A DNA stretch of 64,000 nucleotides, from NCBI RefSeq assembly GCF_031127815.1, contig NZ_JARXHY010000005.1, forward strand, positions 186,001 through 250,000. The letters are read 5' to 3'. Of the stretch, positions 59,010 through 62,336 are shown piece after piece. Position numbers and translations under genes: made by a program. This stretch comes from Pelagicoccus sp. SDUM812003 (lineage in GTDB: Bacteria > Verrucomicrobiota > Verrucomicrobiia > Opitutales > Opitutaceae). The notes under the pieces are model-generated. The model worked only from the letters and a program-made list of their open reading frames with translations. It made no database searches and was not told where the DNA came from. The number at the start of each line of letters is the position of its first letter. The stretch's first letter is position 1.

Positions 59010-60881
59010 CTAGAACAGCTCGTCTCCGCGGTTCCTGTTTCGTCGCTGAAAGCGGCGGTCGATTTCCCCTGCCCCGATCTCGATAAGCGACGGGCGTCCG
59101 TCGGGATCGGTCAGAGGTTTCTGGCAGGCGAAGAGCCGCTCCAGCAGCCGGTCGAGATCCTCAGAGCGCGGCTCCTCCCGCAGGCGACGCACCTTGGCCG
59201 CAGCCCGCTTGGCGATCAGATCCACCGCCACGCCTTCCTTATCCGGCGAAAGCGAGCCTTGACGCAGCATGGCGACCAGCTCCTTGAGAAACTCCTCCGC
59301 ATCCTTCTCCTCCAGCCAGGTCGGCACGCCTTCGATACGAAAGAAATTTCGCCCGAAGGGAGCCACCTCGAAGCCGAGGCGCTCGAAGAAGGGCAAGGCC
59401 TCCTCCAAGGCTGCCGACGAAACGGGATCCAGCTCCACGGGCTGAGCCAAGAGCAATTTCTGGCAGTGAACCTTGTGGGTTTCGAAGTCCGTCAAGAGCC
59501 CTTCGTACAAGACGCGCTGCTGAGCGGCCTTCACGTTGAGTAGCACCACGCCAGAGCCAGTGTCAAAAACTGCGAATTCACCCTGAGCCCACCCCAAATA
59601 GCTCCAGTTTCTTTCCTGGCGCACGGATTCCGCTTCGCTCGGCGACTCGACTTTCCGGTCCTTTCCAAGCGACGGCTGGGGGGCCGCAGGCGGCTTGTTC
59701 CCTTCCGGAGCTTTCTTCGCTGGAGCGGGCGGGTCCGATTGAACTAGGCGACGGCGAGCGGGAGGTGGCGAAGACGACGCTTTTCGGGCTGGCGTTTCGG
59801 AGGAGGTCACGTCGCGCGCCTCGTCCAGCCTCTTCGGCAGTCGCGGCGCCGCCGGCTTGGTTTCGACCCTCGTGAAGTCTCCCAAGCTCTCGGTCTCGTC
59901 CTTGAGAGCGTTCAGTATGGTCCGCACCGCGAATCCGCGAGCTTTGGCCTCCTCGCGAAAACGGATTTCCTTTTTGGCCGGATGCACGTTCACATCGACC
60001 CGCTCCGGCGCGATCTCCAAAAACAGGAACGCCACGGGGTAGCGGCCTTTGGGAATGTGACCGTAGTAGGACTCCACCAAGGCGTAGCTTAACGTCTTGT
60101 TTTCCACCGGCCGATTGTTGACGAAAAACAGCATCTCGTGGCGACTGGAGCGTGAAAAGTTCGGCTTGCCGATCAGTCCGCGCAGCCGCATCCCATCCTC
60201 CTCCGCGTCGATCTCCAGCACCGAATTCGCGATCTGCCTGCCAAAGATCGCTCCCACCCGACTCTTGAGGCTGTCCCCTGCAGCGGATTCGAACAGGATC
60301 CTCCCATCGTCCAGCAAGGTGAATCCAACATTTGGATGCGCCAGCGCGTAGAGACGCACGCAATGAACGATGTGGGCAGCTTCGGTAGCCACGCTTTTCA
60401 AGAACTTTCGCCGAGCAGGAACAGTGTTGAAAAGCTTGCTGATCGACATGCGAGTCCCTTGCGGCATGCCGCAGTCACGGGTGTGCAGCATCCGCCCCCC
60501 ATCGATCAGGATCTCCGTCCCTGCCTCGTTCTCCGCATCTCGCGTCTGCATCTGAAATCTGGATACGGACGCGATAGAGGGAAGAGCTTCGCCGCGAAAC
60601 CCCATGGTGGTCAGGCAGTCGAGATCTTTCGCCAGGCGGATCTTGCTGGTGGCATGGCGCTCGAGGGACAGCAAGGCGTCCTCGCGGCTCATGCCGCAGC
60701 CGTTGTCTTCGATGCGCATCAAGCTGGTGCCGCCATTGCGAAACTCCACCTCGATGCGCGTAGCCCCTGCGTCGATACTGTTCTCCACCAGCTCCTTCAC
60801 CACCGAAGCCGGGCGCTCGATCACCTCGCCCGCCGCGATCTGGTTGGCTACCTGATCTGGGAGTACCTGTACTTTAGCCAT
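59010..60881 (-). CDS. mutL: DNA mismatch repair protein MutL, endonuclease motif lost
   Basis: 623 residues. The N-terminal GHKL ATPase is intact: ELVENSIDAGAT, IEDNGCGM, TMGFRGEALPSI and the later NNRPV loop. A Pro/Lys-rich linker (about 340-420) follows, then the C-terminal dimerisation domain. There the usual metal motif DQHAxxERxxYE reads NVKAAQQRVLYE (Asp to Asn, His to Lys, first Glu to Gln). The ACxxAVK motif reads AKRAAAK, and CPHGRP reads DPDGRP. All metal-ligand positions are therefore changed, so nicking activity is probably absent, as in E. coli MutL. It couples MutS to later steps of mismatch repair. It lies 54 bp downstream of argH on the same strand. Confidence 0.95.
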   Translation of the reverse strand: MAKVQVLPDQVANQIAAGEVIERPASVVKELVENSIDAGATRIEVEFRNGGTSLMRIEDNGCGMSREDALLSLERHATSKIRLAKDLDCLTTMGFRGEALPSIASVSRFQMQTRDAENEAGTEILIDGGRMLHTRDCGMPQGTRMSISKLFNTVPARRKFLKSVATEAAHIVHCVRLYALAHPNVGFTLLDDGRILFESAAGDSLKSRVGAIFGRQIANSVLEIDAEEDGMRLRGLIGKPNFSRSSRHEMLFFVNNRPVENKTLSYALVESYYGHIPKGRYPVAFLFLEIAPERVDVNVHPAKKEIRFREEAKARGFAVRTILNALKDETESLGDFTRVETKPAAPRLPKRLDEARDVTSSETPARKASSSPPPARRRLVQSDPPAPAKKAPEGNKPPAAPQPSLGKDRKVESPSEAESVRQERNWSYLGWAQGEFAVFDTGSGVVLLNVKAAQQRVLYEGLLTDFETHKVHCQKLLLAQPVELDPVSSAALEEALPFFERLGFEVAPFGRNFFRIEGVPTWLEEKDAEEFLKELVAMLRQGSLSPDKEGVAVDLIAKRAAAKVRRLREEPRSEDLDRLLERLFACQKPLTDPDGRPSLIEIGAGEIDRRFQRRNRNRGDELF

Positions 60882-60935: not shown

Positions 60936-62336
60936 CTAGCCGAGACTCTTCTTCCACTTGGCAAGCTGCTTGCGGATCTGCTTGGGACCTGGCATGCCAG
61001 CGCCTTCGCGGGCTTTCATGGCGCGCTGCAGATCGAAGACCTCCATCCAGTCGTCGCCCATCTTCGGGTGCAAAGCCTTGGCTTGATCGTTGGGAATCTC
61101 GTTCAGCGGGCAATCCAGCTTCTCGCCCAAGGCCACCAGAGCGCCGACCACGTGATGCGCCTCGCGGAACGCCACTCCCTTGTTGACCAGATAGTCCGCG
61201 AGATCCGTAGCGAGTAGTGCCGGATCGGATACGGCAGCAGCGCACTTTGCCTCGCGAAACTCCATGCCCTCGACCGTGCCGGTGAGCACGTCCAGAGAGA
61301 TGGAGAGCTGATCGAAGCTGTCGAAGACCTGCGGCTTGTCCTCCTGCAGGTCGCGATTGTAGGTCAGCGGCAAGCCCTTCACCATGACGAAGAGGCTTTG
61401 CTCGTTGCCGATGATGCGGCCAGACTTGCCGCGCAAGAGCTCCAGAGAGTCTGGATTCTTCTTCTGCGGCATCAGGCTGGAGCCCGTACAAAAGGCATCC
61501 GGGAGAGAGACGTAGGAAAACTCTGACGAATTCCAGATGATCACGTCTTCCGCCACGCGTGAGATGTGAGTGGCCGTCACCGAGCAGGCATGAGCGAAAT
61601 CGAGAAACAGGTCGCGATCCGCCACCGCGTCCATGCTGTTTGGGGTCACCTGCGGCTTGCCGCGAGCGTCGACGAAGCCGAGGGCCTTGGCGGTGAACTC
61701 GCGATCGATAGGCAAGGTAGTGCCCGCGATGGCTCCGGATCCGAGCGGGCACCAGTTGGCATTCTCGTAGACGCGCACGAAACGCCCGATGTCGCGGCCG
61801 AACATTTCCACGTACGCCAGCAAGTGATGAGCGACTGATACCGGCTGAGCGCGTTGGAGATGCGTGTATCCAGGTATGAATACATCCTGATTCTTCTCGG
61901 CGATGGTCAGCAAGGCCCCGAGGAGCCGTTCCAGCTTAGCCACCATTTGGCCGCAGGCATCCTTGAAGAACAAGCGAACATCCGTAGCCACTTGATCATT
62001 ACGACTGCGAGCGGTATGCATCTTCGCCGCGGCGGGAGTGATCTTGGTCAGCAGCTGCTCGATGTTCATATGAACGTCCTCGAACTCCGCCTTCCACTCG
62101 ACCTCGCCCTTGGCGATCCTTTTCGCCAGAACCTCGAGTCCCTTGTGAATATCGCGCAGCTCCTTCTTGGTAAGCAGGCCGATGCTTTGCAGCATCGCGG
62201 TGTGAGCCTTGTTCACCTCGATATCGTAGGGAGCCAATCGCTTGTCGAACGACACGGATTCGCCGAAGGCCAGCATCAATTCCGCTGGCCCTTTCGAAAA
62301 ACGTCCACCCCAAGTTGCTTGAGCTTTCTTCGCCAT
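60936..62336 (-). CDS. argH: Argininosuccinate lyase
   Basis: A 466-residue cytoplasmic tetrameric enzyme that cleaves argininosuccinate to arginine and fumarate (EC 4.3.2.1). It begins [40 protein letters not shown] is conserved region 1, [20 protein letters not shown] region 2 with the catalytic His, and the fumarase-superfamily signature [12 protein letters not shown] includes the catalytic Ser loop. The length is standard. It follows the exbD genes by about 70 bp and precedes mutL; it is not with other arginine genes in this window. Confidence 0.98.

Follow-up and report, generated by a model that had tools for sequence, protein, structure and literature searches.

In organisms that lack MutH, DNA is nicked by MutL itself, as stated in excerpts of three papers (PMC12733681, PMC8744996, PMC8034640). 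The zinc/manganese ligands of such MutLs lie in the DQHA(X)2E(X)4E, ACR, and CPHGRP motifs, the last of which has an Arg reported to be catalytic (excerpt of PMC10366529). An Asp-to-Asn exchange equivalent to the one described below abolishes the endonuclease activity of Bacillus subtilis MutL (excerpt of PMC2965676), and the D472N variant of Caulobacter MutL gives a mutation rate nearly equal to that of a mutL deletion (excerpt of PMC8034640). Mismatches can also be handled without MutH in a clamp-coupled manner by NucS/EndoMS (excerpt of PMC8228993). Here, we compare these systems with the MutL encoded in the window, i.e., the 64,000-nucleotide stretch of DNA from Pelagicoccus sp. SDUM812003 that was analyzed (Table 1).

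The mutL frame of the window encodes a full-length MutL that matches TIGR00585 over residues 4-540 (531.6 bits; cut-off, 180), Pfam MutL_C (80.5 bits), and DNA_mis_repair (130.6 bits), and these matches, together with the predicted fold of its C-terminal domain (CTD), place it in the MutL family. In the N-terminal domain (NTD), residues E30, N34, D59, G61, G63, and G94-A99, which we take to be those of the GHKL ATPase, are unchanged across 19 MutLs that have lost the metal site (alignment A2). The argH gene adjoins mutL in 8 loci of the window's order, the window counted, and on the side away from argH a gene for a cyclophilin-type peptidyl-prolyl isomerase is convergent with mutL. No nuclease family was found with Pfam among the 10 ORFs neighboring mutL, 8 of which match non-nuclease families and 2 of which match nothing. 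Neighborhoods were clustered for 41 mutL loci, 7 of them from MutLs with an intact site.

Table 1. Positions of mutL, its domains and motifs, and argH in the window, and of paired RNase HII-family genes in genomes of the window's order
Feature	Position	Strand	Description
mutL	59010..60881	(-)	623 aa, ATG start; GHKL ATPase N-terminus, linker, C-terminal dimerization domain without metal site
MutL N-terminal ATPase domain	59880..60881	(-)	Residues 1-334
NVKAAQQRVLYE	59502..59537	(-)	Residues 449-460; replaces DQHA(X)2E(X)4E; ligand His to Lys, ligand Glu to Gln, Asp to Asn
AKRAAAK	59193..59213	(-)	Residues 557-563; at ACR motif; ligand Cys to Ala
DPDGRP	59091..59108	(-)	Residues 592-597; at CPHGRP; ligand Cys to Asp, ligand His to Asp; catalytic Arg kept
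QKLLLA	59445..59462	(-)	Residues 474-479; at presumed beta-clamp motif; Pro to Ala, with Q and L-L unchanged
DELF, C-terminal tail of MutL	59013..59024	(-)	Putative clamp-motif-like; window and Pelagicoccus L103
argH (argininosuccinate lyase)	60936..62336	(-)	PF00206, PF14698; 54 bases upstream of mutL, same strand
RNase HII pair, G099	C1:2690361-2691851		
RNase HII pair, G018	C1:2769109-2770511		
RNase HII pair, G075	C9:8255-9668		
RNase HII pair, G001	C13:50125-51464		
RNase HII pair, G088	C1:718869-721054		

An earlier note on this DNA had described all three endonuclease motifs of the protein as altered, and this is borne out by alignment: the window strings fall on DQHA(X)2E(X)4E, ACR, and CPHGRP, with the Asp-to-Asn change at a non-ligand position. 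Among the residues that characterize a nuclease-type MutL, the ligand His and Glu of the first motif are absent from NVKAAQQRVLYE, the Cys of ACR from AKRAAAK, and the Cys and His of CPHGRP from DPDGRP. The wording that every motif is altered holds for the motifs as such, yet several residues survive in the window protein: R456 and E460, both the P and the G of PxG, and the catalytic Arg. From these residues and the published mutants, we infer that the window MutL would be unable to nick DNA. Its nearest named relative among the best 80 of at least 583 candidates, the MutL of Pelagicoccus sp. SDUM812002 (L103), is 72% identical (71% over the CTD) and reads NLRAAQQRILYE, AKRAAAK, and DPEGRP at the three motifs. 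The genus Pelagicoccus is placed by NCBI in Puniceicoccales, Opitutia, and both His are absent in all 18 MutLs compared from the window's order (the window, 14 genomes, and the tree-placed L103, L104, and L112). That the altered motifs stem from faulty sequencing or assembly is therefore a negligible explanation, since the L103 protein carries the same changes; other relatives from the window's order have identical or parallel substitutions, which fall in motifs lying apart from one another, and the frame is open.

The host genome (5.75 Mb, 88 contigs, 97.5% complete) was searched for MutH, Dam, and a second MutL, as the same note had proposed. The MutL_C profile found a single match, which excludes a second MutL with a CTD, and there is one MutS1 (TIGR01070, 870.7 bits) with FYEM, GPNMAGKS, and the clamp-like tail ENQLGLF, so that an intact MutS1 is available for MutS-MutL repair. 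Neither MutH (PF02976) nor a Dam-type adenine methylase of the D12 family, the methylase family searched (PF02086), had a match in this 97.5% complete genome; among 14 control genomes, PF02976 matches that of Escherichia coli only. NucS_C (PF01939) gave a weak partial match of 31.2 bits (cut-off, 24) that covers profile positions 30-87 of 124 in a 208-aa frame. The argument that, if MutH is absent, either nicking or the choice of strand has to proceed in another way is thus supported as reasoning.

Loss of the site is common to several groups of Verrucomicrobiota and is not the oddity of one genome. MutL_C was matched in 281 of the 288 genomes drawn from the phylum and in 99/103 from the class. 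From the 99 CTDs of the class, 70 were read, 28 were not read, and 1 was broken; the site was lost in 33/70 and kept in 37/70, the latter including L009, which is truncated at the third motif. Keepers outside the class and three named loci were added to the class readings, and L009 was taken out, giving a state table of 98 sequences, from which L002 and L077 were also left out for their broken frames. All four Cys/His ligands are kept in 62 of the 98 (hereafter keepers), and the remaining 36/98 (losers) do not represent a prevalence because 40 of the loci read were picked from low scorers; families f4-f6 of the window's order, which score equally low, were not read. In L077 (genome G111, family f7), mutL is spread over two frames, a 422-residue N-terminal ORF and a 318-residue C-terminal one, pointing to a frameshift or assembly error. 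Two f10 genomes of 0.9 Mb (G036 and G057) have no match to MutL_C or MutS1, which fits reduced genomes without mismatch repair.

The D, Q, H, A, and E of the first motif, both Cys, and the second His are present in 62/62 keepers. Both His are gone in 36/36 Verrucomicrobiota losers, and in 30 of these an Arg or a Lys stands in place of the first His; the ACR Cys is missing in 34, the CPHGRP Cys in 27, and the bridging Glu in 8, including the window, being retained in 28. All 36 losers keep the clamp Q/L/L, the helix R and E (E460), and both the P and the G of PxG. At the catalytic Arg, 35 of them have Arg or Lys. In the losers of f71, D, Q, E, and both Cys are still in place, and the departure from the full motif is mainly at the two His; the named locus L114 is intermediate, with the first His kept and the second lost. 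The position of QKLLLA is presumably that of the beta-clamp motif, and the clamp-MutL structures 6e8d and 6e8e match this region of the window MutL; its P-to-A change is likewise found in 6/36 losers and 2/62 keepers. The window and Pelagicoccus L103 MutLs end in a basic extension with DELF that resembles a clamp tail, the internal motif of the window being without Pro, and no other aligned MutL of the window's order has the DELF tail.

A named sample across many phyla (the best 80 of at least 583 confirmed candidates) gave 77 readable CTDs, with L145, L157, and L179 lacking one. Bacteria without MutH had been expected to keep these residues normally, which is correct for most of this sample, where both His are kept in 68/77 CTDs, and incorrect for several Verrucomicrobiota groups and the five Bacteroidales read. 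Both His are lost in 8 CTDs, from Pelagicoccus (L103), Opitutae (L104), L112, Spartobacteria (L123), Akkermansia (L133), Akkermansiaceae (L151), Puniceicoccales (L171), and Odoribacter (L174), and one His is lost in L114. The site is kept in Prosthecobacter (L110) and other Verrucomicrobiaceae (L105, L108, and L163), and the keeper Prosthecobacter and the loser Akkermansia belong to one order according to NCBI. Five Bacteroidales MutLs were read, that of Odoribacter and four from a plasmid collection (Parabacteroides distasonis, Bacteroides finegoldii, Phocaeicola massiliensis, and Prevotella sp. oral taxon 299). All five are without the Cys of ACR and the Cys and His of CPHGRP (TPDGK-like), the Glu is missing in four, and the first His is kept in three. 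The control genome of Bacteroides ihuae has MutL_C and MutS1 matches and none to MutH, D12, or NucS_C. The Parabacteroides and B. finegoldii records (L265 and L266) are annotated "DNA mismatch repair endonuclease MutL" despite most ligands being missing; this name, which is also that of TIGR00585, is probably wrong for such proteins.

The Verrucomicrobiota MutLs were also aligned with regard to the loss of the motif, another check that had been suggested, and on a MutS+MutL-NTD tree of 54 genomes five separate changes are required to account for the lost/kept label, each of them forced by starred branches. The loser branches are the window's order, f7, f10/13/15/79, f71, and f83; f7 is sister to the single f11 keeper of the tree, f71 stands beside the keepers of f69, and f83 stands beside a keeper of f80. 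Family f7 is regarded as Akkermansia-like because the named Akkermansia MutL (L133) shares its helix string and length with L084 of f7. Near copies (G310, G319, G315, and G324) and long rows (G008 and G312) were dropped from this tree, and f74 lies outside the count of five because of the latter. Uniting the three main loser groups in one clade costs 43 log units with MutS+NTD, where it is rejected at the 0.05 level (p-AU 0.031), and is not clearly rejected with the NTD alone (p-AU 0.065), in quick trees with SH-aLRT support only, and p-AU is not a clean test here because the groups were named after the motif was seen. A single loss event is disfavored by the MutS+NTD value and the five forced changes. 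Near copies and most rows from other classes were dropped from the NTD tree (74 rows), and the long rows L151, L171, L064, L048, and L114 were also dropped from the second NTD analysis, which gave the value of 0.065. Unlike the MutS+NTD tree, the full-length MutL tree groups f7 with f10/13/15/79, and CTD convergence or long branches may be behind this grouping. We infer that the changes are losses and not gains, given that the motif is usually intact and that an identical regain of several ligands is implausible.

AlphaFold2 predicts the standard MutL CTD fold for the window (pLDDT 90.3) and the same order of elements for a Prosthecobacter keeper (pLDDT 87.6). The window model is closest to the CTDs of B. 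subtilis and Neisseria (VIA Z 16.9-17.5; B. subtilis, 16.9-17.1), with a VIA Z of 13.5 to the E. coli CTD (1x9z). With saturated pairs omitted (2/9 loser pairs, window-L103 among them, and 1 keeper pair), CTD dN/dS ranges from 0.026 to 0.173 across 7 loser pairs and from 0.011 to 0.168 across 6 keeper pairs; five of the six keeper pairs are below 0.05, and loser values tend to be higher. Both the CTD and the NTD of the loser groups are under purifying selection. The ratio of CTD to NTD divergence is 1.1-2.3 in losers versus 0.8-1.5 in keepers, and the faster loser CTDs with their higher dN/dS could reflect weakened constraint. Helix II carries a net charge of -2 in 62/62 keepers; the means for the three main loser groups are +0.2, +0.9, and -0.2.

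The MutS partner carries F-x-E and GPNMAGKS in 30/30 loser and 30/30 keeper genomes and a clamp-like tail, Q[LMF]x[LM][LF], in 26/30 and 23/30, respectively. Its MutS1 scores are 822-871 bits in the window's order, 948-973 in f7 losers, and 838-908 in f8 keepers. As a substitute for the lost nuclease, MutH was rejected: its family is matched in 3/288 genomes of the phylum (L100, L101, and L102), all in loser groups (f1, f3, and f7), and each gene adjoins one or two DNA methylase genes (PF02086, PF01555), which points to restriction-modification and not to mismatch repair. Smr, found in 16/33 losers (one under the cut-off) versus 5/37 keepers, does not track the loss, being present in 12/15 genomes of the window's order, 0/8 of f7, and the f11 keeper sister of f7. 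Neither do NucS_C (3/33 losers versus 7/37 keepers, some under the cut-off) and the D12 methylase (17/33 versus 13/37), the latter matched in 8/8 f7 losers and 7/15 of the window's order, the host not among them. Smr within the window's order and D12 within f7 do lean toward losers. RNase HII, found in 102/103 class genomes including the host, does not track the loss, and its near-universal presence does not discriminate losers. Among the matches listed, several genomes of the window's order have two adjacent RNase HII-family genes, and pairs in other families, compared by eye, lie far apart. In one keeper genome (G296), a small Smr-domain ORF (C9:21138-21365) follows mutS (C9:21467-23977) on the same strand, about 100 bases further downstream.

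Overall, we favor break-directed repair with a nuclease-free MutL and place a nickase outside the known families second. The specific proposal, that MutL is here a nuclease-free, clamp-tethered matchmaker and that strand choice is made via pre-existing nascent-strand breaks, has in our judgment an even chance of being right. MutL would no longer incise; MutS and MutL would load at the replication clamp, and the clamp-tethered, ATP-switched MutL would direct helicase and exonucleases to existing nascent-strand breaks, for which Okazaki-fragment ends, RNase HII nicks at ribonucleotides, and the 3' end at the fork are candidates. The strand would then be chosen from the position of breaks and clamp and not from a MutL cut. 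Judged by its residues, the two-metal site has been taken apart, its two His, its two Cys, and the bridging Glu all being replaced, with the ATPase residues and Q/L/L kept, and the CTD fold is predicted to be kept. Arg or Lys in the former pocket may replace the positive charge of the metals and hold the helix against the remaining acidic residues; against this, f83 and f74 do not follow fully, having Glu and Leu, respectively, at the first His, with the f83 helix charge still at -2. Okazaki ends and RNase HII nicks are discussed as possible starts in MutH-less bacteria in an excerpt of PMC8744996, which supports no more than the plausibility of break-directed repair. Against the matchmaker reading, a nickase not yet seen fits equally well, and there is no tie between the loss and existing nicks. 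Caulobacter, in which the nuclease residues are present, loses repair without the Asp (excerpt of PMC8034640), so pre-existing breaks alone are insufficient there.

The same Caulobacter dependence suggests that losing the residue would need a substitute, i.e., that a separate, unrecognized endonuclease nicks beside a nuclease-dead MutL in a MutH-like role, possibly a different one in each lineage. We consider this rather unlikely, because the known families tested (MutH, NucS_C, Smr, and D12) do not track the loss and the ten mutL neighbor ORFs, two of them without a Pfam match, include no nuclease family; in its favor are the E. coli-like CTD fold predicted for the window (Z 13.5 to 1x9z) and, in the 8/8 f7 losers, D12 methylases as candidates for strand marking. 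It also has one well-known precedent, E. coli, where a metal-less MutL coexists with MutH. Degenerate mismatch repair, with MutL kept for another job such as blocking the recombination of diverged DNAs, could account for the faster evolution of loser CTDs relative to their NTDs and for the lower MutS1 scores of the window's order compared with f7 losers; f8 keepers, however, also score low, and losers can therefore not be told by low scores. This reading is improbable given that the mismatch and ATPase motifs of MutS are intact in 30/30 loser genomes, that both MutL domains are under purifying selection, and that loser lineages are old and species-rich, whereas repair-deficient mutators are usually short-lived. 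More doubtful still is a remodeled site that remains able to cut by using other metals or another acidic cluster, as might be read from the residues that losers retain (Arg/Lys at the catalytic Arg in 35/36, E460 in 36/36, the bridging Glu in 28/36) and from f71, where D, Q, E, and both Cys stay and the two His are changed. The window has both Glu-to-Gln and Asp-to-Asn, the second of which alone kills B. subtilis activity and Caulobacter function according to the excerpts cited above, and both His are lost in 36/36 losers; among the named loci with a loss, one, L114, keeps the first.

Break-directed repair and a separate nickase share a broader conclusion, which we hold to be probable: at least five Verrucomicrobiota lineages, including Opitutales/Puniceicoccales and relatives of Akkermansia, and separately the Bacteroidales, have a third start of MutS-MutL repair that uses neither MutH nor a MutL nuclease, with nascent-strand breaks read via the clamp by a dead MutL or with an unnamed nickase. 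If true, this third way of starting repair would include dominant human gut bacteria. The rule that MutH-less organisms nick by MutL is broken by lineages without MutH that have repeatedly lost the site while keeping MutS and the remainder of MutL, and the loser lineages are natural experiments on how the new strand is recognized; genetics exists for Bacteroides. Among the matches listed from open-license literature (titles and the starts of abstracts), there was no report of a nuclease-dead MutL in MutH-less Verrucomicrobiota or Bacteroidota. A survey of MutL motifs, reportedly by Banasik and Sachadyn in 2014, may bear on the novelty.

Compared with the MutLs of B. subtilis (3gab, 3kdg, and 3kdk) and Neisseria (3ncv), the nearest solved CTDs by both profile and fold, the window MutL has all metal ligands replaced and also carries the Asp-to-Asn exchange that, in the excerpt cited above, abolishes B. 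subtilis activity. The NucS-bearing control, Corynebacterium glutamicum, has no match to MutL_C or MutS1, whereas the host genome has both. Eukaryotic MLH1 and Mlh2 are MutL homologues without a metal site of their own that act beside or within a catalytic complex. MLH1 chains are among the structural matches of the window CTD, and the window MutL is likewise without a metal site; unlike in the MLH1 and Mlh2 complexes, the single MutL of the host genome implies a homodimer without a catalytic subunit. The MutH-dependent, non-catalytic MutL of E. coli shares with the window MutL a metal-less CTD of the same fold (1x9z), a QxLL clamp-type motif, and a GHKL ATPase; in control searches, E. coli has both MutH and the D12 methylase, neither of which was found in the host genome. 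The motif regions are unlike: E. coli has SLPVAERWLRQ, whereas the window MutL keeps the nuclease-type helix, PxGRP, and the spacing, and therefore reads as a worn-down nuclease CTD.
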